This document shows, in pieces, positions 32,073 through 54,450 of a stretch of 64,000 nt of DNA. The notes beneath the pieces were generated by a model. The model had not been told where the DNA came from, ran no database searches, and saw only the letters and a program-made list of their open reading frames with translations. Made by a program: the position numbers and the translations under genes. The first letter of the stretch is position 1; every line of letters begins with the position of its first letter. Source of the stretch: Pseudogemmatithrix spongiicola (lineage in GTDB: Bacteria > Gemmatimonadota > Gemmatimonadetes > Gemmatimonadales > Gemmatimonadaceae); assembly GCF_030623445.1 (NCBI RefSeq), contig NZ_CP130613.1:3100001-3164000 (forward strand), given 5' to 3'.

Positions 32073-33107
32073 TGTTGTTGGTGAGGAGGTTGTTCACAGG
32101 AGCGTAGCGGATGCAAGCTGGGGTTGCTGAGACGCTCAACCGGCACCCCGCCAGAGGCTCCTGTGAACATCCACAAGAATGCACGTCTGACCGTCGCGGG
32201 GCGACTCGCCGTCGCGACCGCCGTTCTGGGCGGGCAGGATCCCGCCGCCGTCGCCCGGGGCGCGGCCTGTTCCGTCCGCACCGTCTGGAAGTGGGTCGCC
32301 CGCTTCCGCACCGGCGGCGCGGCGGCGCTCGCGGACCGCTCGTCGCGCCCGCATCGCCTCACCCAGCTCCCGCGGCCGCAGCGCCGCGCGATCCTTCGGG
32401 GCCGCACCCGGCGGCGCTGGAGCTCGACGCGCATCGCCCAGGAGACGGGCATCCCGCTCTCAACGGTGATCCACTTCCTGCGCCGCCACGGCCTGCAGCG
32501 GCTCCCTCGGCTCGAGCCGCCGCGCGCGGTGCGCCGCTACGAGATGCGGGCACCGGGCGAGCTGCTGCACGTCGACACGAAGAAGCTCGGGCGCATCGGC
32601 CGCGTGGGGCACCGCATCCACGGCGACCGCCGGACCCGCGTGCGCGGGATCGGCTGGGAGGCGGTGCACGTCGCGGTGGACGCCTACTCGCGCGTGGCCT
32701 ACGCCGAGGTCCTGCCCGATGAGCGCGCGGCGACCACGGCGGCCTTCCTCGCACGGGCGATCGCGTGGTACGCGGCGCTCGGCGTGCGGGTGCGCGCCGT
32801 GCTCACCGACAACGGGAGCTGCTATCGCAGCCACGCGGTGCGCACGCTCCTCCGCTGCGACGGCATCACGCACAAGCGCACCATGCCCTACACGCCGCGC
32901 ACGAACGGCAAGGTCGAGCGGCTGATCCAGACGCTCCTGCGGGAATGGGCGTACGCGCGCCCCTACCCCTCCTCGCGGGTGCGCACGGAGTGGCTCGCGC
33001 GCTACCTGCGGACGTACAATGAGGCGCGCGGACACTCAGCCCTCAACTACCTCCCCCCCATGCTGCATCTCGCTGCGGCCCTGTGAACAACGTCCTCACT
33101 AACAACA
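32073..33107 (+). mobile_element. IS481-family element A (1035 bp) in attC18
   Basis: Imperfect terminal inverted repeats of 28 bp (left begins TGTTGTTGGTGAGGAGG; right is its complement with two changes). It is flanked by a perfect 6-bp target duplication CCTAGC at 32067-32072 and 33108-33113. One transposase gene. Complete and probably active-looking. Confidence 0.9.
32163..33086 (+). CDS. IS481-family transposase (element A)
   Basis: 307 residues from GTG 32163, chosen because relatives here start MNxHKNARLT. An N-terminal helix-turn-helix (QDPAAVARGAACSVRTVWKW) precedes an rve/DDE integrase core: HVDTKKLG, VLTDNGSCY and the catalytic Glu in TNGKVERLIQT. No frameshift. Confidence 0.88.
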   Translation: MNIHKNARLTVAGRLAVATAVLGGQDPAAVARGAACSVRTVWKWVARFRTGGAAALADRSSRPHRLTQLPRPQRRAILRGRTRRRWSSTRIAQETGIPLSTVIHFLRRHGLQRLPRLEPPRAVRRYEMRAPGELLHVDTKKLGRIGRVGHRIHGDRRTRVRGIGWEAVHVAVDAYSRVAYAEVLPDERAATTAAFLARAIAWYAALGVRVRAVLTDNGSCYRSHAVRTLLRCDGITHKRTMPYTPRTNGKVERLIQTLLREWAYARPYPSSRVRTEWLARYLRTYNEARGHSALNYLPPMLHLAAAL

Positions 33108-43371: not shown

Positions 43372-43515
43372 CTATAACGACGCTTGCTGCCGATGAACGC
43401 GGTGCGGTAGCGGGGCTGGGGCGGTCGCTCTTGTGCGAGCGGGGACGGCACGGTCTAGCGACCGCCCCACCCCCGCATTCTATTGAAGCGTTCACAGCAG
43501 AAGCACACGTTATGG
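43372..43515 (+). repeat. attC24 (class iv, 144 bp)
   Basis: TAAC at 43375, GTTA at 43509; stem CGGGGCTGGGGCGGTCGC. Confidence 0.92.
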
Positions 43516-43519
43516 CGAC

Positions 43520-44744
43520 TGGATTCAGAGGGTCGATGCAACACCTTCCATAGTTCCTTCTATATGGAGGTTGTCGCGATGTTCATCCCCAGCCCGCACG
43601 GCTACACGTGGCAGCAGCGCGCTGAACTCTGGGCGCGCTATCGCGCCGGTGACTCGGTCCGCGAGATCGCCCGCGACCTCGCCAAGGATCCCGGCGCACT
43701 TCACGGCGTGATTCGCAAGCAAGGGGGCATCTCGCCGCGCCTGCGTGCACGATCGGCGTTGGCGCTGTCGCTCGACGAACGGGAGCGCATCTCGCGCGGG
43801 CTCGCCGCCGGCGAATCCTACCGAGCGATCGGCCGCGCCCTGGGCCGTGCCGCATCGACCATCAGTCGTGAGGTCGCACGTCATGGGGGCCCGACGAAGT
43901 ATCGGGCCGTCCGCGCCGACGCGGTCGCGTGGAAGTCCGCGCGTCGGCCGAAGGCCTGCCGCCTCGCGTCCCGGCCGCGCCTGCGCTATCTCATTGCAGC
44001 GAAGCTGAAGCTGCGCTGGTCACCGGAGCAGATCAGCGCGTGGCTCCGCCGCACCTACCCGCACGAGCCGGAGTTGCACGTGTCGCACGAGACGATCTAC
44101 CGCTCGCTGTACGTCCAGGCGCGCGGCGTGCTCAAGAAGGAACTGCTGAGGCACCTGCGCACGGGACGCGTGGTGCGGCGCGCCCGCGCCTCGACGCGCA
44201 AGGGCCAGGGGCGCGGGCAGATCGTCGATGCCATTCCCATCAGCGCGCGCCCGGCCGAGGTCGAGGACCGCGCCGTGCCCGGCCACTGGGAGGGCGACCT
44301 CCTCGCCGGCGGCGGCAACACGCACATCGCCACGCTCGTGGAGCGCACGTCGCGCTTCACGATCCTCGTGAAGGTCGAGAGCAAGGAGCCGGGCCGCGTC
44401 GTGCCCGCGCTCATCCGCCAGATCCGGCGGCTGCCGGCGCACGTCGCGCGCTCGCTCACCTGGGACCGCGGCAAGGAACTCGCGCACCACCAGCGCTTCA
44501 CCGTCGCCACCGGCGTGCAGGTCTACTTCTGCGATCCGTACAGTCCGTGGCAGCGCGGCACCAACGAGAACACGAACGGCCTCCTGCGGCAGTACTTCCC
44601 CACGGGCACGAGCCTCGCCAACGTTACGCAGCGGCAGCTCGATGCCGTCGCGGCTCAGCTCAATGGACGGCCCCGCAAGACGCTCGACTTCCGCACCCCG
44701 GCAGAAGTCTTCGACGAAGCTGTTGCATTGATTGCTTGAATTCA
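43520..44744 (+). mobile_element. IS30-family element, copy 1 (about 1225 bp)
   Basis: Imperfect inverted ends share GATTC...TCRATGCAACASCTTC over 28 bp (left at 43520, right complement ending 44744). It begins ten bases after the attC24 crossover. The flanks carry GAC on both sides, a possible 3-bp duplication. Copy 2 at 51569 has the same internal sequence and left position. Confidence 0.85.
43579..44739 (+). CDS. IS30-family transposase, copy 1
   Basis: 386 residues. ATG 43579 is chosen for the GGAGG at 43566-43570; an upstream ATG at 43564 lies on that site. An N-terminal HTH (SLDERERISRGLAAGESYRAIG) precedes the IS30 DDE core: GHWEGDLLAGG, LTWDRGKELAHH and the Glu in GTNENTNGLLRQYFP. 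Intact. Confidence 0.9.
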   Translation: MFIPSPHGYTWQQRAELWARYRAGDSVREIARDLAKDPGALHGVIRKQGGISPRLRARSALALSLDERERISRGLAAGESYRAIGRALGRAASTISREVARHGGPTKYRAVRADAVAWKSARRPKACRLASRPRLRYLIAAKLKLRWSPEQISAWLRRTYPHEPELHVSHETIYRSLYVQARGVLKKELLRHLRTGRVVRRARASTRKGQGRGQIVDAIPISARPAEVEDRAVPGHWEGDLLAGGGNTHIATLVERTSRFTILVKVESKEPGRVVPALIRQIRRLPAHVARSLTWDRGKELAHHQRFTVATGVQVYFCDPYSPWQRGTNENTNGLLRQYFPTGTSLANVTQRQLDAVAAQLNGRPRKTLDFRTPAEVFDEAVALIA

Positions 44745-46362: not shown

Positions 46363-46884
46363 ATGCTGACGCATCATCCCGCAGCTCGAAGCACATTCCC
46401 GGCCTATAGCACGATCGCGACCAGCCTCGACGCGCTGGTCGAGGAACTGCGTCCGCCCTCCCCTCGCTTCGTCCTCTTCGTCGCGGCGGATGTGTCGGCG
46501 CAGTCTGATGCGGCGCTTGCGGCCTGGGCTGGGCGCGCGCTCGATCGTGGCGTCGCCTATGCTTGCTGCTGGGGACCGGGTTGTGGTCGCCTCGAAACCG
46601 CGTTTGACCTCGCGGCCATCGACCGCGAGACGGAGGTCACGCGCAACGATGGCGTGAGTGTGGTCGTGACTACGGCGCACGAGCGCGACTCGCTCCGCGA
46701 AGCCGCCTGGTTCGCCCTTAACGCCGCGTACCCTGCGGGCGTCTTCGAGGAAGGCACCGATGCGATCGTTCTCGCGGTCGTCGGGATGCCAGCGGAGCAT
46801 CGCGAACTCGTCGAGTATCTCGAAAGCGGCGCGCCAATCTATAGACGCGGTATAACGACGCTTGCTGCCGACGAGCGCAGCTAG
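46363..46884 (+). CDS. DUF7684-like hypothetical protein (cassette 27), copy 2
   Basis: Identical to 33192-33713 (offset 13171), including the run into attC. Only the attC differs, through the IS insertion. Confidence 0.5.
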   Translation: MLTHHPAARSTFPAYSTIATSLDALVEELRPPSPRFVLFVAADVSAQSDAALAAWAGRALDRGVAYACCWGPGCGRLETAFDLAAIDRETEVTRNDGVSVVVTTAHERDSLREAAWFALNAAYPAGVFEEGTDAIVLAVVGMPAEHRELVEYLESGAPIYRRGITTLAADERS

Positions 46885-47019
46885 TGTAGCGGTTGTTGGG
46901 CCCCAGCCTCATCTTTTGGAAGGTCTGCTGGGGCCCCACAACCGCATTTTTCTGTGAAGCGGCGGCCCGCGTCAAGCCCCAGATGTGCTGACGCTGTTGC
47001 AACTCTCGATTGTGCCCGC

Positions 47020-47165
47020 GCGGCTCGAGGTGCTGCTCATCCTTCTGTTCGCGCTCACTCGTGAGGCCCGCGGCCTCGGCGCATTGGGGTCTGCGAAGGA
47101 GTGGTGGCGCCAACTATGGGTCGGCTCTCACCAGCGGCCATAAAATGCGTCGCGCTCACCACGCC
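47020..47165 (-). ncRNA. Candidate bridge RNA, copy 1
   Basis: Read on the minus strand, the target loop comes first. Its outer stem is GTGGTGGCGC (47101-47110) with GCGCTCACCAC (47152-47162). One loop side reads CGCATTTTATGG (47149 to 47138), identical to the attC target; the other side (47115-47120, TATGGG on +) would pair with the right half. A second loop holds a GAGGCC/GGCCTC hairpin (47063-47077) and CTTCTGT (47042-47048), matching the IS end junction ACTTCTGTG. This is the arrangement known for IS110 bridge RNAs; expression is inferred. Confidence 0.6.
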
Positions 47166-47212
47166 CGATTCAGTCATCTCGATCCTACGCAGGTCCTGCA
47201 TGCCCGCGGTGC

Positions 47213-48256
47213 TTACGCGGCGTGCACCGGCTCGCTCGGCGGCATCCGCAGCTGGCCCGCGTCATACGCCCGCTGATCCCGCCACATCGCATACAGGATG
47301 CCCGCGAGCCGCCGCGCCAGCGCGACCGCCGCGATCTTCTTGCCCCGCCGATGCAGGATGCGCTGCGCCCACGCGCGCAGCACCGCGGTGTCGGCCGCCT
47401 TCGAGCGGAGGATGCGCCACGCCGCCTCGACCAGGAGATAGCGCGCGCGGCGGTTGCCCGCCTTCGTGATGTGCCCGACCCGGCGCTTCTCGCCTGAGCT
47501 CCGCTCCCCGGGCACCAGCCCGAGGAAGGCCTCGAACTGGTGCGCCGACGGGAACCGGCCGACGTCATCCGCAATCGCGACGAGGCCGCTCGAGGTCACC
47601 GGCCCGATGGAGGGGGCCGTCTGCAGCAGCGCCACGATCGGGTCCGTGCGCCCCAGTGCCGCGATGCGCGCGTCCGCGGCCTCGATCTGGACGTTCAGCG
47701 GGCCGAGGACCGCGATCAACGGCGCGAGCTCGGCCGCCAGCGTCGACCCGAGGGGGAGCGCCGTGAGTCGCTCGACGAAGTTCGCGGCCGTGCTGCTCGG
47801 CACGCGCAGGCCGTCGCGGCGCACGAGCGCCTTGGCGAGCGCGATGCACCGCGTGCGCGTGCGGACCAGCGCCTCGCGCACCGCCAGCTCGGCGCGCACG
47901 TGGCGGCGCGCGGCCGACACGCGGTGCGCTGGCCGATAGGCGCCGAGCCGGAGCGCGTCGGCGAGGGTGCGCGCATCGCGCCTGTCCGTCTTCACGCGCC
48001 GACTCCGCGTGGCGTACATCGGCGCGAAGTTCGGGTCGGCGACAATCACCGCGTGGCCGAGCGCCTCCAGGTGACACGCGACCCATTCGCTCTCGGTCGA
48101 CGCCTCGACGAGGATCCGCGCGGGCGGACGCGACCCCAGCACCGCCGTGAAGCGGTCACGGCTCGTGACGATGCGCCGCTCCGTCGCGTGCCCCTCCGCG
48201 TCGAGGATGCAGAGTTGGCTCTCGCGCTTGTGGAGATCAATCCCTATCATATCCAT
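47213..48256 (-). CDS. IS110/IS1111-family transposase, copy 1
   Basis: 347 residues from ATG 48256 (MDMIGIDLHKRESQ). The N-terminal DEDD RuvC-like domain shows GIDLHK, ILVEASTESEW and the later KTDRRDARTLADAL. The C-terminal Tnp20 domain has IVALLQTAPSIGPVTSSGLVA and EAFLGLVPGERSSGEKRRVGHITKAGNRRARYLLVEAA (in parts), with the serine recombination residue expected there. Family enzymes use an RNA guide to pick targets. Confidence 0.93.
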   Translation of the reverse strand: MDMIGIDLHKRESQLCILDAEGHATERRIVTSRDRFTAVLGSRPPARILVEASTESEWVACHLEALGHAVIVADPNFAPMYATRSRRVKTDRRDARTLADALRLGAYRPAHRVSAARRHVRAELAVREALVRTRTRCIALAKALVRRDGLRVPSSTAANFVERLTALPLGSTLAAELAPLIAVLGPLNVQIEAADARIAALGRTDPIVALLQTAPSIGPVTSSGLVAIADDVGRFPSAHQFEAFLGLVPGERSSGEKRRVGHITKAGNRRARYLLVEAAWRILRSKAADTAVLRAWAQRILHRRGKKIAAVALARRLAGILYAMWRDQRAYDAGQLRMPPSEPVHAA

Positions 48257-48512
48257 GGCGGCTGGCCTCCGCAGTGTGCCCCGTCGCGAGACGGTGAGCA
48301 CGGTAGATGGTATGGGGCAGAACCTTGCACCCCGCGATGGGCGGAGGTCCAGCCGCCGCTTCATACCAACTATGGAAGCGCTCGCAGCAGAAGCATACGT
48401 TATGCCGGCACACCAGCCCTCGGGTGTGCCGCTGTGGTTGCGGTCCCTGCTGAATGGACGTAGCATATCCGCTGGGCACTTAAGCTTCCCTCAGCAACCT
48501 GGAGCCGATTTC

Positions 48513-49974: not shown

Positions 49975-50178
49975 TGCATTTTGGGCGACTAGCGGTCGCG
50001 ACTTGCGGCATAACGACGCTTGCTGCCGACGAGCGCGGGTGTGGTGGCGGTTGTGGGGCCTCGGCTCCATCTTCTCGAAAGGTTCGCCGAGGCCCCACAA
50101 CCGCATTTTTCTGTGAAGCGGCGGCCCGCGTCAAGCCCCAGATGTGCTGACGCTGTTGCAACTCTCGATTGTGCCCGC

Positions 50179-50324
50179 GCGGCTCGAGGTGCTGCTCATC
50201 CTTCTGTTCGCGCTCACTCGTGAGGCCCGCGGCCTCGGCGCATTGGGGTCTGCGAAGGAGTGGTGGCGCCAACTATGGGTCGGCTCTCACCAGCGGCCAT
50301 AAAATGCGTCGCGCTCACCACGCC
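50179..50324 (-). ncRNA. Candidate bridge RNA, copy 2
   Basis: Identical to the copy at 47020-47165. Here the right target is ATGGG, so the guide segment TATGGG matches in full at 50274-50279, and CGCATTTTATGG at 50297-50308 matches the left half. Confidence 0.6.
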
Positions 50325-50371
50325 CGATTCAGTCATCTCGATCCTACGCAGGTCCTGCATGCCCGCGGTGC

Positions 50372-51415
50372 TTACGCGGCGTGCACCGGCTCGCTCGGCG
50401 GCATCCGCAGCTGGCCCGCGTCATACGCCCGCTGATCCCGCCACATCGCATACAGGATGCCCGCGAGCCGCCGCGCCAGCGCGACCGCCGCGATCTTCTT
50501 GCCCCGCCGATGCAGGATGCGCTGCGCCCACGCGCGCAGCACCGCGGTGTCGGCCGCCTTCGAGCGGAGGATGCGCCACGCCGCCTCGACCAGGAGATAG
50601 CGCGCGCGGCGGTTGCCCGCCTTCGTGATGTGCCCGACCCGGCGCTTCTCGCCTGAGCTCCGCTCCCCGGGCACCAGCCCGAGGAAGGCCTCGAACTGGT
50701 GCGCCGACGGGAACCGGCCGACGTCATCCGCAATCGCGACGAGGCCGCTCGAGGTCACCGGCCCGATGGAGGGGGCCGTCTGCAGCAGCGCCACGATCGG
50801 GTCCGTGCGCCCCAGTGCCGCGATGCGCGCGTCCGCGGCCTCGATCTGGACGTTCAGCGGGCCGAGGACCGCGATCAACGGCGCGAGCTCGGCCGCCAGC
50901 GTCGACCCGAGGGGGAGCGCCGTGAGTCGCTCGACGAAGTTCGCGGCCGTGCTGCTCGGCACGCGCAGGCCGTCGCGGCGCACGAGCGCCTTGGCGAGCG
51001 CGATGCACCGCGTGCGCGTGCGGACCAGCGCCTCGCGCACCGCCAGCTCGGCGCGCACGTGGCGGCGCGCGGCCGACACGCGGTGCGCTGGCCGATAGGC
51101 GCCGAGCCGGAGCGCGTCGGCGAGGGTGCGCGCATCGCGCCTGTCCGTCTTCACGCGCCGACTCCGCGTGGCGTACATCGGCGCGAAGTTCGGGTCGGCG
51201 ACAATCACCGCGTGGCCGAGCGCCTCCAGGTGACACGCGACCCATTCGCTCTCGGTCGACGCCTCGACGAGGATCCGCGCGGGCGGACGCGACCCCAGCA
51301 CCGCCGTGAAGCGGTCACGGCTCGTGACGATGCGCCGCTCCGTCGCGTGCCCCTCCGCGTCGAGGATGCAGAGTTGGCTCTCGCGCTTGTGGAGATCAAT
51401 CCCTATCATATCCAT
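50372..51415 (-). CDS. IS110/IS1111-family transposase, copy 2
   Basis: 347 residues, identical in protein to copy 1 at 47213-48256. Confidence 0.93.
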   Translation of the reverse strand: MDMIGIDLHKRESQLCILDAEGHATERRIVTSRDRFTAVLGSRPPARILVEASTESEWVACHLEALGHAVIVADPNFAPMYATRSRRVKTDRRDARTLADALRLGAYRPAHRVSAARRHVRAELAVREALVRTRTRCIALAKALVRRDGLRVPSSTAANFVERLTALPLGSTLAAELAPLIAVLGPLNVQIEAADARIAALGRTDPIVALLQTAPSIGPVTSSGLVAIADDVGRFPSAHQFEAFLGLVPGERSSGEKRRVGHITKAGNRRARYLLVEAAWRILRSKAADTAVLRAWAQRILHRRGKKIAAVALARRLAGILYAMWRDQRAYDAGQLRMPPSEPVHAA

Positions 51416-51568
51416 GGCGGCTGGCCTCCGCAGTGTGCCCCGTCGCGAGACGGTGAGCACGGTAGATGGTATGGGGCAGAACCTTGCACCCCGCGATGGG
51501 CGGAGGTCCAGCCGCCGCTTCATACCAACTATGGGAGCGCTCGCAGCAGAAGCACACGTTATGGCGAC

Positions 51569-52793
51569 TGGATTCAGAGGGTCGATGCAACACCTTCCAT
51601 AGTTCCTTCTATATGGAGGTTGTCGCGATGTTCATCCCCAGCCCGCACGGCTACACGTGGCAGCAGCGCGCTGAACTCTGGGCGCGCTATCGCGCCGGTG
51701 ACTCGGTCCGCGAGATCGCCCGCGACCTCGCCAAGGATCCCGGCGCACTTCACGGCGTGATTCGCAAGCAAGGGGGCATCTCGCCGCGCCTGCGTGCACG
51801 ATCGGCGTTGGCGCTGTCGCTCGACGAACGGGAGCGCATCTCGCGCGGGCTCGCCGCCGGCGAATCCTACCGAGCGATCGGCCGCGCCCTGGGCCGTGCC
51901 GCATCGACCATCAGTCGTGAGGTCGCACGTCATGGGGGCCCGACGAAGTATCGGGCCGTCCGCGCCGACGCGGTCGCGTGGAAGTCCGCGCGTCGGCCGA
52001 AGGCCTGCCGCCTCGCGTCCCGGCCGCGCCTGCGCTATCTCATTGCAGCGAAGCTGAAGCTGCGCTGGTCACCGGAGCAGATCAGCGCGTGGCTCCGCCG
52101 CACCTACCCGCACGAGCCGGAGTTGCACGTGTCGCACGAGACGATCTACCGCTCGCTGTACGTCCAGGCGCGCGGCGTGCTCAAGAAGGAACTGCTGAGG
52201 CACCTGCGCACGGGACGCGTGGTGCGGCGCGCCCGCGCCTCGACGCGCAAGGGCCAGGGGCGCGGGCAGATCGTCGATGCCATTCCCATCAGCGCGCGCC
52301 CGGCCGAGGTCGAGGACCGCGCCGTGCCCGGCCACTGGGAGGGCGACCTCCTCGCCGGCGGCGGCAACACGCACATCGCCACGCTCGTGGAGCGCACGTC
52401 GCGCTTCACGATCCTCGTGAAGGTCGAGAGCAAGGAGCCGGGCCGCGTCGTGCCCGCGCTCATCCGCCAGATCCGGCGGCTGCCGGCGCACGTCGCGCGC
52501 TCGCTCACCTGGGACCGCGGCAAGGAACTCGCGCACCACCAGCGCTTCACCGTCGCCACCGGCGTGCAGGTCTACTTCTGCGATCCGTACAGTCCGTGGC
52601 AGCGCGGCACCAACGAGAACACGAACGGCCTCCTGCGGCAGTACTTCCCCACGGGCACGAGCCTCGCCAACGTTACGCAGCGGCAGCTCGATGCCGTCGC
52701 GGCTCAGCTCAATGGACGGCCCCGCAAGACGCTCGACTTCCGCACCCCGGCAGAAGTCTTCGACGAAGCTGTTGCATTGATTGCTTGAATTCA
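51569..52793 (+). mobile_element. IS30-family element, copy 2 (about 1225 bp)
   Basis: Same as copy 1 (offset 8049), again starting ten bases after an attC crossover (GTTATGGCGAC then the element). The right flank differs from that of copy 1. Confidence 0.85.
51628..52788 (+). CDS. IS30-family transposase, copy 2
   Basis: 386 residues, identical in protein to 43579-44739, with the same GGAGG ribosome site. Intact. Confidence 0.9.
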   Translation: MFIPSPHGYTWQQRAELWARYRAGDSVREIARDLAKDPGALHGVIRKQGGISPRLRARSALALSLDERERISRGLAAGESYRAIGRALGRAASTISREVARHGGPTKYRAVRADAVAWKSARRPKACRLASRPRLRYLIAAKLKLRWSPEQISAWLRRTYPHEPELHVSHETIYRSLYVQARGVLKKELLRHLRTGRVVRRARASTRKGQGRGQIVDAIPISARPAEVEDRAVPGHWEGDLLAGGGNTHIATLVERTSRFTILVKVESKEPGRVVPALIRQIRRLPAHVARSLTWDRGKELAHHQRFTVATGVQVYFCDPYSPWQRGTNENTNGLLRQYFPTGTSLANVTQRQLDAVAAQLNGRPRKTLDFRTPAEVFDEAVALIA

Positions 52794-52840: not shown

Positions 52841-53287
52841 ATGAACCCCTCCGCTTCGTCACGCGCCGCCGCAGGCGCCCTGTTGTCCCTCGCTGGGCTG
52901 GCGGGCCTCGCTTGCACGGAGCCGTTCTCCCCGCGGCCGCTCGCGGGTCTCTACGCGATGGTCGCGCTCAACGACGTCGCGCCGCCGAGAACGCTCGCGC
53001 CGAACTTCGTCGTGGTTGCCGACACCCTGCAACTCGGCGTCGACGGCCGCGGCACGTGGACTAGCGTACGTGACACGACGCCGGCCGGCGCAGCGCCCCT
53101 TCCGCTCGCCACGCAATCAATCGTCGTCCGCGTCGCGCACCGCAACGGCACCACGTGGCTTGACTTCGTAGATCAATGCACGGGCGTCCAAGACTGCGTG
53201 GCCCGCTACCCACTCACCGCCGTGGCCGACGGGCTGATCGTCGACGTCGACCCGGCCATCTTCAGGTTCCTGCGCGTCGCGCCATAA
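52841..53287 (+). CDS. Lipoprotein of unknown function (cassette 29)
   Basis: 148 residues with lipobox LAGLAGLACTEP. The mature part has strands (GLYAMVALNDV, LQLGVDGRGTWTSV) and one C-TGVQD-C pair; it may be a small lipocalin-like barrel. The stop TAA lies in attC29. It follows the IS30 copy in the same cassette. Confidence 0.55.
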   Translation: MNPSASSRAAAGALLSLAGLAGLACTEPFSPRPLAGLYAMVALNDVAPPRTLAPNFVVVADTLQLGVDGRGTWTSVRDTTPAGAAPLPLATQSIVVRVAHRNGTTWLDFVDQCTGVQDCVARYPLTAVADGLIVDVDPAIFRFLRVAP

Positions 53288-53352
53288 CGCCGCTTGCTGC
53301 CGACAGCCGCAGGTGCGGATTGGGTTGGGCGGGGCGTCCGGGATGGCCTAGG

Positions 53353-54369
53353 TGTAGTGACTCAGGAGGTTGTTCACAGGGCGTAGCCTCACCAAGCTGG
53401 GGTTGTCGAGTCCACTCAACCGGCAACGCCAGAGGCCCCATGAACACCCACAAGAATGCACGCCTGACGCCCTATCTGCGACGGGAGGCCTGCCGCCGCG
53501 TCGCCGCCGGCGCGAAGGTGGCGCAGGTCGCCCGCGACCTCGCGGTCTCCCGCCAGACGATCTACGCGTGGCTCGAGCGCCCCCACGACGTCGAGACCCG
53601 GTCGTCGCGCCCGCACCGGTCGCCGACGCGGATCCCGCGCCGCTGGCGGCGGCAGATCCGCAAGCGCCGCGGCCAGCGCTGGTCCAGCCGCCGCATCGCC
53701 CAGCACTACGGCATCCCGCTCTCGACCGTCGGCCGCGAGCTGCGCCGCCTCGGCCTGGGCCGCCTGCCGCGCGTCGACGGGCCGCGGCGCATCGTCCGCT
53801 ACGAGCGGGACCGGCCCGGCGAGCTCGTGCACCTCGACATCAAGAAGCTTGCCCGCATCTCGCGCGTGGGGCACCGCATCCACGGTGACTACACCCGGCG
53901 GACGCACGGCCGCGGCTGGGAGTTCGTGCACGTCGCGATCGACGACCACACGCGCCTCGCGTACGTCGAGGTGCTGCCGGAGGAGACCGCGGAAGCCGCG
54001 GCCGGCTTCCTCGCGCGGGCGGTCGCGTGGTACGCGGCGCTCGGCATCACGGTCGAGCGCGTGCTCACCGACAACGGCAGCTGCTACCGCGCGCTGCCCT
54101 TCGGCGAGCAGGCCCTGGCCCTCGGCATCGGCCAGCGCTTCACGCGGCCCTACCGGCCGCAGACGAACGGGAAGGCGGAGCGCTTCATCCGCACGCTGAT
54201 CACTGAATGGGCCTACAACCGGGCGTATGCGCGCTCAGGCTGGCGGACCCGGGCGCTCGCGCACTATCTCTCCTTCTACAACACCGAGCGGCGGCACAGC
54301 GCCCTCGGCAACACGACCCCGGCGATGCGGCTCGCCCAGCACCTGTCAACAACGTGCTGAGCCACTACA
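53353..54369 (+). mobile_element. IS481-family element C (1017 bp) in attC29
   Basis: Inverted ends (left TGTAGTGACTCAGGAGG, right complement TGTAGTGGCTCAGCACG) and a perfect 6-bp duplication CCTAGG at 53347-53352 and 54370-54375. Confidence 0.9.
53440..54360 (+). CDS. IS481-family transposase (element C)
   Basis: 306 residues starting MNTHKNARLTPYLRREA. HTH (AQVARDLAVSRQTIYAWL) and an rve core with HLDIKKLA, VLTDNGSCYRA and the Glu in TNGKAERFIRT. Close relative of the element D transposase. Confidence 0.9.
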   Translation: MNTHKNARLTPYLRREACRRVAAGAKVAQVARDLAVSRQTIYAWLERPHDVETRSSRPHRSPTRIPRRWRRQIRKRRGQRWSSRRIAQHYGIPLSTVGRELRRLGLGRLPRVDGPRRIVRYERDRPGELVHLDIKKLARISRVGHRIHGDYTRRTHGRGWEFVHVAIDDHTRLAYVEVLPEETAEAAAGFLARAVAWYAALGITVERVLTDNGSCYRALPFGEQALALGIGQRFTRPYRPQTNGKAERFIRTLITEWAYNRAYARSGWRTRALAHYLSFYNTERRHSALGNTTPAMRLAQHLSTTC

Positions 54370-54450
54370 CCTAGGCTGGTTGCGGACGCCCCGCCCAACC
54401 CTTCTTATTGGAGCGGCTGCAGCAGAAGCACACGTTACTGCGACTACCCA

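Follow-up and report, generated by a model that had tools for sequence, protein, structure and literature searches.

How does an insertion sequence (IS) come to lie, copy after copy, at one and the same place within the attC sites of an integron? The question is raised by a window of 64,000 nucleotides (the whole stretch of DNA that was analysed) from Pseudogemmatithrix spongiicola, positions 3,100,001 to 3,164,000 of contig NZ_CP130613.1. The window contains an IS1111-type element that is inserted in attC. Six identical copies are present in the single-contig 3.26-Mb genome of this species and thirteen further copies, with protein identities of 90–97%, are found in a congener (G073). In all 19 of these copies attC is interrupted at an identical position, the orientation does not vary, and the left flank holds the 3' end of attC. 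Is the site recognised by the transposase itself, or is it read by an RNA? The original prediction for this locus had pointed to RNA guidance. The interpretation that we favour, at a probability of about 93%, is that this is an IS1111-group element with a guide RNA of the seekRNA or bridge-RNA type, encoded behind the transposase gene, which would direct insertion into attC. The features on which this interpretation draws are as follows.

46951..48370, minus strand: IS1111-type insertion sequence of about 1420 bp (six copies identical over 1420 bp, compared with empty attC sites)
47216..48256, minus strand: transposase of 347 aa (stop codon 47213-47215; Pfam matches; six copies at 100% identity)
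46943..46950, plus strand: CGCATTTT, the right half of the target in the attC that is interrupted
48371..48402, plus strand: left half of the target (TATGGAAG...) together with the 3' end of the attC that the element interrupts; the R' motif AGAAGCATACGTTA is at 48389-48402
47096..47165, minus strand: predicted guide-RNA core, with a 13-pair stem with one bulge, an internal loop that holds guides 1 and 2, and an inner stem of 3–4 pairs (from pair counts; covariance model R1, 81.3 bits)
47142..47149, minus strand: putative guide 1, CGCATTTT, within the 12-mer at 47138-47149; reverse complement of the right target half
47110..47120, minus strand: putative guide 2, CCCATAGTTGG, in which CCCATA matches the left target half and GTTGG the left end of the element
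47041..47052, minus strand: conserved loop GCGAACAGAAGG, a candidate guide for the right (donor) end, matching the right end CACAGA

In the sense of the transposase the left end of the IS is on the high-coordinate side. The exact ends are uncertain by 1–2 bases because there is a run of A at the target.

In the proposed mechanism each guide would read a different strand of the target: guide 1 would pair with one strand in the right half, and guide 2 with the opposite strand in the left half. Once strands have been exchanged, guide 2 would also pair with the left end of the element. The complex of RNA and transposase would thereby direct a circular form of the element into a 12-bp motif of the inner, variable part of attC in a constant orientation. 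The element, its ends, its targets, the covarying stem and the agreement of guides with targets, both within and across elements, are read directly from the DNA; for transcription, RNA binding, the circle and strand exchange, we infer that they take place.

Within the host genome the guide sequence is confined to guides and attC sites. The 12-mer CGCATTTTATGG occurs 14 times in 3.26 Mb, six times as a guide and eight times in an empty attC. A wider pattern, CGCATYTTATGG, occurs 21 times, comprising the six guides and fifteen attC matches, 14 of which are followed by the R' motif 24–25 bp on while the fifteenth is within an attC-like match. The reversed pattern, used as a control, has no occurrence in this genome. 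The target is in the inner variable part of attC, 24–25 bp before the AGAAGCA..CGTTA (R') motif, and empty target sites in the cassette arrays of the host read CCGCATTTTATGGGAGC and variants of it. There are three such arrays, at 1.29–1.35, 2.33–2.42 and 3.12–3.16 Mb, and these have several classes of inner attC sequence. Across them 79 attC-type 3' ends with AGAAGCANRCGTTA were counted, at least one of which is unlike attC further in. Six of the 79 are occupied by the element, and exact CGCATTTT is present in all six of these versus nine of the 73 empty ones.

The congener has the guide CGCATTTT in 12 of its 13 copies, next to right target halves of AAAATGCG (seven copies), AAGATGCG (three) and AGAATGCG (two), all of which can pair with this guide if U-G wobble is permitted. 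The thirteenth copy, L040, has the guide CGCATCTT and the right half AAGATGCG. The wider 12-mer pattern has 21 matches in the congener; thirteen are the guides of these copies, which leaves eight matches outside the guides.

The original prediction had described the 12-base copy of the attC target, a TATGGG on the opposite side and a loop with CTTCTGT. The copy is present as CGCATTTTATGG at 47138-47149 on the minus strand; only about eight of its 12 bases behave as a guide. A guide of all 12 bases was dropped because in the alignment of relatives, as judged by eye, the last four (mostly ATGG or TTGG) are constant whatever the left target half. TATGGG is found at 47115-47120, within guide 2, and had been thought able to pair with the right target half; here guide 2 is assigned to the left half. 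CTTCTGT is at 47042-47048 in the loop at 47041-47052. It matches the right end (CACAGA in the transposase sense) and not, as proposed, the joined ends overall. As the guide gene at 47138-47149 matches the element's own target over 12 bases, it should itself be a possible target; no nested insertion in the guide gene is present in the six copies.

Does the guide change when the target changes? Loci of relatives (numbered with L) were collected in two ways. Of 395 genomes of the phylum, 18, including the present one, had a match at an expect value (E) of 1e-40, and scanning named genomes gave 23 loci. Both ends were clear in 12 of the 19 relatives outside the genus, and the seven without clear ends were left out of the permutation test; L069, which has no right flank, entered the test of guide 2 only. 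For the 12 elements with both flanks (our own and eleven relatives), guide 1 agrees with its own right target at a mean score of 7.4 versus 3.7 for foreign targets (p = 1e-5, which is the floor, as none of 100,000 shuffles was as high; the value is unchanged without L074 and L077). The individual scores are 8 for our own element, 10 for L043, 8 for L045, 11 for L066, 9 for L068, 7.5 for L071, 10 for L072, 7.5 for L073, 5 for L058, 3 for L074, 4 for L077 and 6 for L079. The guide 1 of L058 was cut from a wrong anchor, and the correct stretch, chosen by eye, also scores 5. Guide 2 agrees with the left target at a mean score of 4.3 versus 3.3 (13 elements, p = 1.2e-4). Controls were not significant: guide 1 on the wrong strand gave p = 0.13, guide 2 on the wrong strand 0.78 and guide 1 at the wrong end 0.93. 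From the relatives without clear ends and those cut by a contig end, six with a readable right flank were read later for guide 1 (L041, L067, L080, L042, L053 and L078; L047 and L070 lack a right end, and L046, L075 and shorter fragments were left out), and four of these six (L041, L067, L080 and L042) match exactly over 8–9 bases. Such covariation of guide with target is what is expected of a seekRNA or bridge RNA. By this agreement among elements with unrelated targets, and by the confinement of the 12-mer and the exact guide 1 in all occupied sites, RNA-guided choice of the target is strongly supported at the level of sequence, as had been predicted.

The guides are enclosed in a structure that is conserved between relatives, which is also a property of seekRNAs and bridge RNAs. 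The 10-bp stem of the original prediction holds: GTGGTGGCGC at 47101-47110 pairs with GCGCTCACCAC at 47152-47162 with one bulged base, and across relatives 13 pairs were counted. Over 16 segments, seven of the 13 pairs of this outer stem have changes on both sides and 86.5% of cells are paired; for the whole structure the figure is 85.6%, versus 42–63% in slid registers. In 500 shuffle controls the numbers of paired cells and of double-change cells and the covariation score were reached by none, and the number of double-change pairs by five. At E 0.001 the covariance model R1 matches only the six copies in the host genome (81.3 bits at 47096-47165), and it matches all eight of the searched relatives that were outside the model and have at least 59% identity. 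Among eight relatives of 33–39% identity, which entered the RNA comparison only, it gave E 0.002 for L049, 0.014 for L054, 0.21 for L051 and a cut-off match at 6 for L060, and no match in the other four. None of ten plasmid IS1111/IS110 elements was matched at E 10. The host genome has eight further PF02371 matches beyond the six copies; these are other IS110-type genes, of three kinds by score, and no R1 match is present near them. Rfam, run on 46800-48400, gave five matches, all far below gathering scores (whether Rfam 15 includes a bridge-RNA family was not checked).

Some observations weigh against RNA guidance as it is set out here. Among the six later relatives L053 has one mismatch and L078 has no clear guide 1 match, guide 1 is poor in L074 and L077, and in L058 it spans only five bases. 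When ten plasmid IS were inspected by eye, both guides were seen only in L097 and neither in six; in ISKpn2 and ISMex29 guide 2 was accompanied by a guide 1 that was shorter or imperfect, and IS5075 showed guide 1 alone. The hypergeometric p for the occupied sites, 1.8e-5, is only rough because attC sites are related to one another and not independent. In the structure, the number of pair types was reached by 41 of the 500 shuffles and three of the 17 counted pairs are unpaired in 6–8 of the 16 sequences. The free RNA folds no better than shuffles: a stretch of 140 nt has z 0.07 and one of 74 nt has z -1.36, which was matched by 17 of 200 shuffles. Folding of single sequences is uninformative and was set aside as proof; the structure is supported by the pair counts and the covariance model. 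The unremarkable folds may be due to the GC-rich sequence and to guides that are partly complementary, being directed to opposite strands of one target.

Could the transposase itself recognise the folded attC hairpin or its DNA, with the match in the non-coding end being incidental? A typical attC forms a strong single-strand hairpin (z -6.56) with the IS target in its weakly paired inner part, and the known targets of IS1111 elements include foldable sites, according to excerpts of PMC11187229. However, the flanks of L043, L066, L068, L072 and L080 do not look like attC, and guide 1 of these elements nevertheless fits their own targets over 9–11 bases. In addition, the exact guide sequence is missing from 64 of the 73 empty attC 3' ends of the host, and sites of this kind hold no copy. 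We regard recognition by the protein alone as highly improbable.

The 12-mer might instead be a fragment of attC that the element has picked up, as a scar or decoy, and that guides nothing. It is identical to attC, and coincidence may account for its final four bases (ATGG). Yet in most relatives the same position of the RNA, within the covarying stem, carries the relative's own target, which makes a captured fragment an extremely unlikely explanation. It also appears extremely unlikely that the copies owe their spread to duplicated cassettes or homologous recombination instead of guided transposition. The copies are identical and are in three related arrays, but their flanks vary (as judged by eye over short stretches), one copy in the host (c1) is in a CCAAT-type site, and the congener has thirteen further sites. 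Insertion guided by the RNA is therefore the interpretation that we retain.

To which group does the element belong? The original prediction had spoken of an IS110-family bridge RNA. Two guides in an internal loop are present, but the element is of the IS1111 group and not IS110 in the narrow sense, because it has 12-bp subterminal repeats, a guide region behind the transposase gene and the top-strand guide before the bottom-strand guide. The further features that bear on this are the following.

46955..46966, plus strand: subterminal inverted repeat of the right end, TGAAGCGGCGGC, with the outer extension at 46951-46954
48352..48363, minus strand: subterminal inverted repeat of the left end, TGAAGCGGCGGC, with the 7-base outer extension GTTGGTA at 48364-48370
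50110..51529, minus strand: second identical copy within the window, in a separate attC site, with the guide 12-mer at 50297-50308

The IS1111 group has been defined by subterminal inverted repeats of 11–13 bp whose outer extensions measure 7 and 3 bp (PMC11187229, in excerpt). In the present element the repeats are 12 bp and the extensions 7 (left, GTTGGTA) and 3–4 bases (right, CAG(A), the last base being ambiguous). The transposase has the size of that group (about 340 aa) and its DEDD (RuvC) and Transposase_20 domains; the Pfam matches, both above cut-off, are to Transposase_20 (E 2.1e-22) and DEDD_Tnp_IS110 (E 2.1e-15). As in the group, the non-coding DNA is longer downstream, with 261 bp from the coding end to the repeat end versus 107 bp upstream of the start.

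A TTGAC at 46971-46975 on the minus strand, about 20 bp inside the right end, is kept in most aligned relatives, though not in L045, L066 and L068. It is possibly the -35 box of a promoter that is created when the IS ends are joined.

IS1111 elements that target attC by a seekRNA have been published, namely ISKpn4, ISPst6 and ISPa25 (Siddiquee et al. 2024, PMC11187229), and the excerpts of PMC11616780 and PMC11089894 also describe attC as a target of the group, while that of PMC12444791 concerns targeting of attC by insertion sequences in general. An RNA-guided IS aimed at attC, as had been proposed here, is not new as a principle. From the text excerpts, the three published elements resemble ours in their IS1111 transposase, in subterminal repeats whose extensions are 7 and 3, in their attC target and in a guide RNA behind the transposase gene with the top-strand guide 5' of the bottom-strand guide. 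Our element shares insertion into attC with the IS1111-attC group, but ISKpn4 and ISPst6, as described there, insert at one end of attC and ours in the inner variable part. For this reason our name for it is attC-targeting IS1111 element, and we keep it apart from the IS1111-attC group as described. The plasmid matches listed for the transposase are at most about 36% identical to it, and ISKpn4, ISPst6 and ISPa25 are not among the compared records. With the bridge RNA of IS621/IS110 (Durrant et al. 2024, PMC11208160; Hiraizumi et al. 2024, PMC11208158) it shares, as far as the excerpts go, the internal loop, two guides for two target strands and a part of the guide that pairs with the donor after exchange (the handshake guide, which in IS621 has 2 nt per loop). 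It differs in that the RNA is behind the transposase and not before it, in its long subterminal repeats and in a donor run of guide 2 of up to 5–6 nt. Among the listed titles and abstract openings on IS1111, seekRNA, bridge RNA, attC and gemmatimonad integrons, no published report names the present element. The comparison suggests that what is new is the other place within attC, together with two evolutionary observations.

The first of these concerns guide 2. Past its match to the left target half it continues with the left-end bases of its own element, which are AGTTGG, AGAGGG, AGATGG or AAATGG depending on the relative. In 13 elements 67 of 78 positions agree with the own left end versus 50 in shuffles (p = 1e-5), and for nine representatives of clades, chosen by hand, the count is 48 of 54 (p = 3e-5); this permutation does not fully correct for ancestry. 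Agreement is only four of six in L058, L072, L077 and L079. The AGAGG pair is found in L045 and L066, which are not sisters on the transposase tree, several forks of which are weak and in which L058 is a broken, long-branched row. In the plasmid elements L097, ISKpn2, ISMex29 and IS5075 the run into the left end is about 3–5 of 7 bases by eye, and so it is not claimed for the whole IS1111 group. The conserved loop, for its part, changes with the right end in two relatives: where this is CATACA (L071) the loop has AATACA, and where it is CATAGC (L074) it has AATAGA. L069, with the loop TACAGA and the right end CATAG (cut by the contig), does not fit. In excerpts of PMC11208158 a two-base handshake guide of IS621 pairs with the donor after exchange, and according to those of PMC11208160 a multi-loop in the RNAs of IS1111 elements has bases that could bind the donor. 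A long donor-matching run of guide 2 is not stated for IS1111 in the text excerpts, as distinct from the figures and supplements, of PMC11187229, PMC11208160 and PMC11208158.

The second observation concerns the aim of guide 1. L042, L045, L058 and L067 are in attC sites of other integrons. Their right flanks run into a GTTAG (R') no more than about 100 bp away, and this is preceded by a complementary L' (both identified partly by eye). A CTAAC (R'') is found 15–16 bp before the insertion in L058, L064 and L065/L044. L064 and L065/L044 are probably also in attC sites of other integrons; their guides are beyond the contig end. Of the other relatives with a right flank (L041, L043, L066, L068, L072, L073, L079 and L080) only L068 has GTTAG, at 33 bp, the flank of L073 being only 72 bases. 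The attC-sited relatives belong to the same transposase clade (L058 as a broken copy) and have the same type of RNA where the RNA region is present. Their insertion point is the L'' box near the attC 5' end and their guide 1 is CGCAGCTT (L042, L045 and L067) or CGCAGACT (L058); in L042, L045, L058 and L067 the aim is thus the L'' box, whereas the present element is aimed at the inner part of attC. Our lineage groups with L041/L042 and L064 on the transposase tree, and its guide 1 differs from CGCAGCTT by one letter (L040, CGCATCTT) or two (CGCATTTT). This suggests that the aim was shifted by a few letters during evolution, from CGCAGCTT through CGCATCTT to CGCATTTT, the direction of change being our own reading.

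Taken jointly, guide 2 would represent the product junction (the left target half plus 5–6 left-end bases, both co-evolving), a long handshake guide, and the aim of the lineage would have moved from the L'' end to the inner attC by few-letter steps in guide 1. We consider the odds on this combination to be even.

Other elements have also entered these arrays. An rve-type transposase gene (open reading frame 53176-54360; Pfam rve, rve_3 and LZ_Tnp_IS481) is part of an element at about 53350-54370 with the terminal repeats GTGTAGTGACTCAGG / CTGAGCCACTACAC, which is inserted at CTAG in the inner part of attC. Its right junction recurs at one attC in another array, and a less similar one is near window position 33104. 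Two copies of an HTH_38 and rve element, at 43483-44739 and 51466-52788 (Pfam was run on the first only), are in the same cassette array; we take this element to be IS30-like.

For the biology of integrons, the guide explains which attC sites the element breaks and why. Because many relatives reveal their aim in the sequence, comparison can be used to test the guide rules of the IS1111 group. If guide 2 does represent the product junction, then one strand of the target loop would read target and donor together, a hypothesis of donor recognition that bears on programmable recombinases. The shifted aim suggests that retargeting has occurred naturally within a single recombination site, between two of its parts, and, if true, integron hosts and their IS parasite would be engaged in a chase at the level of sequence.
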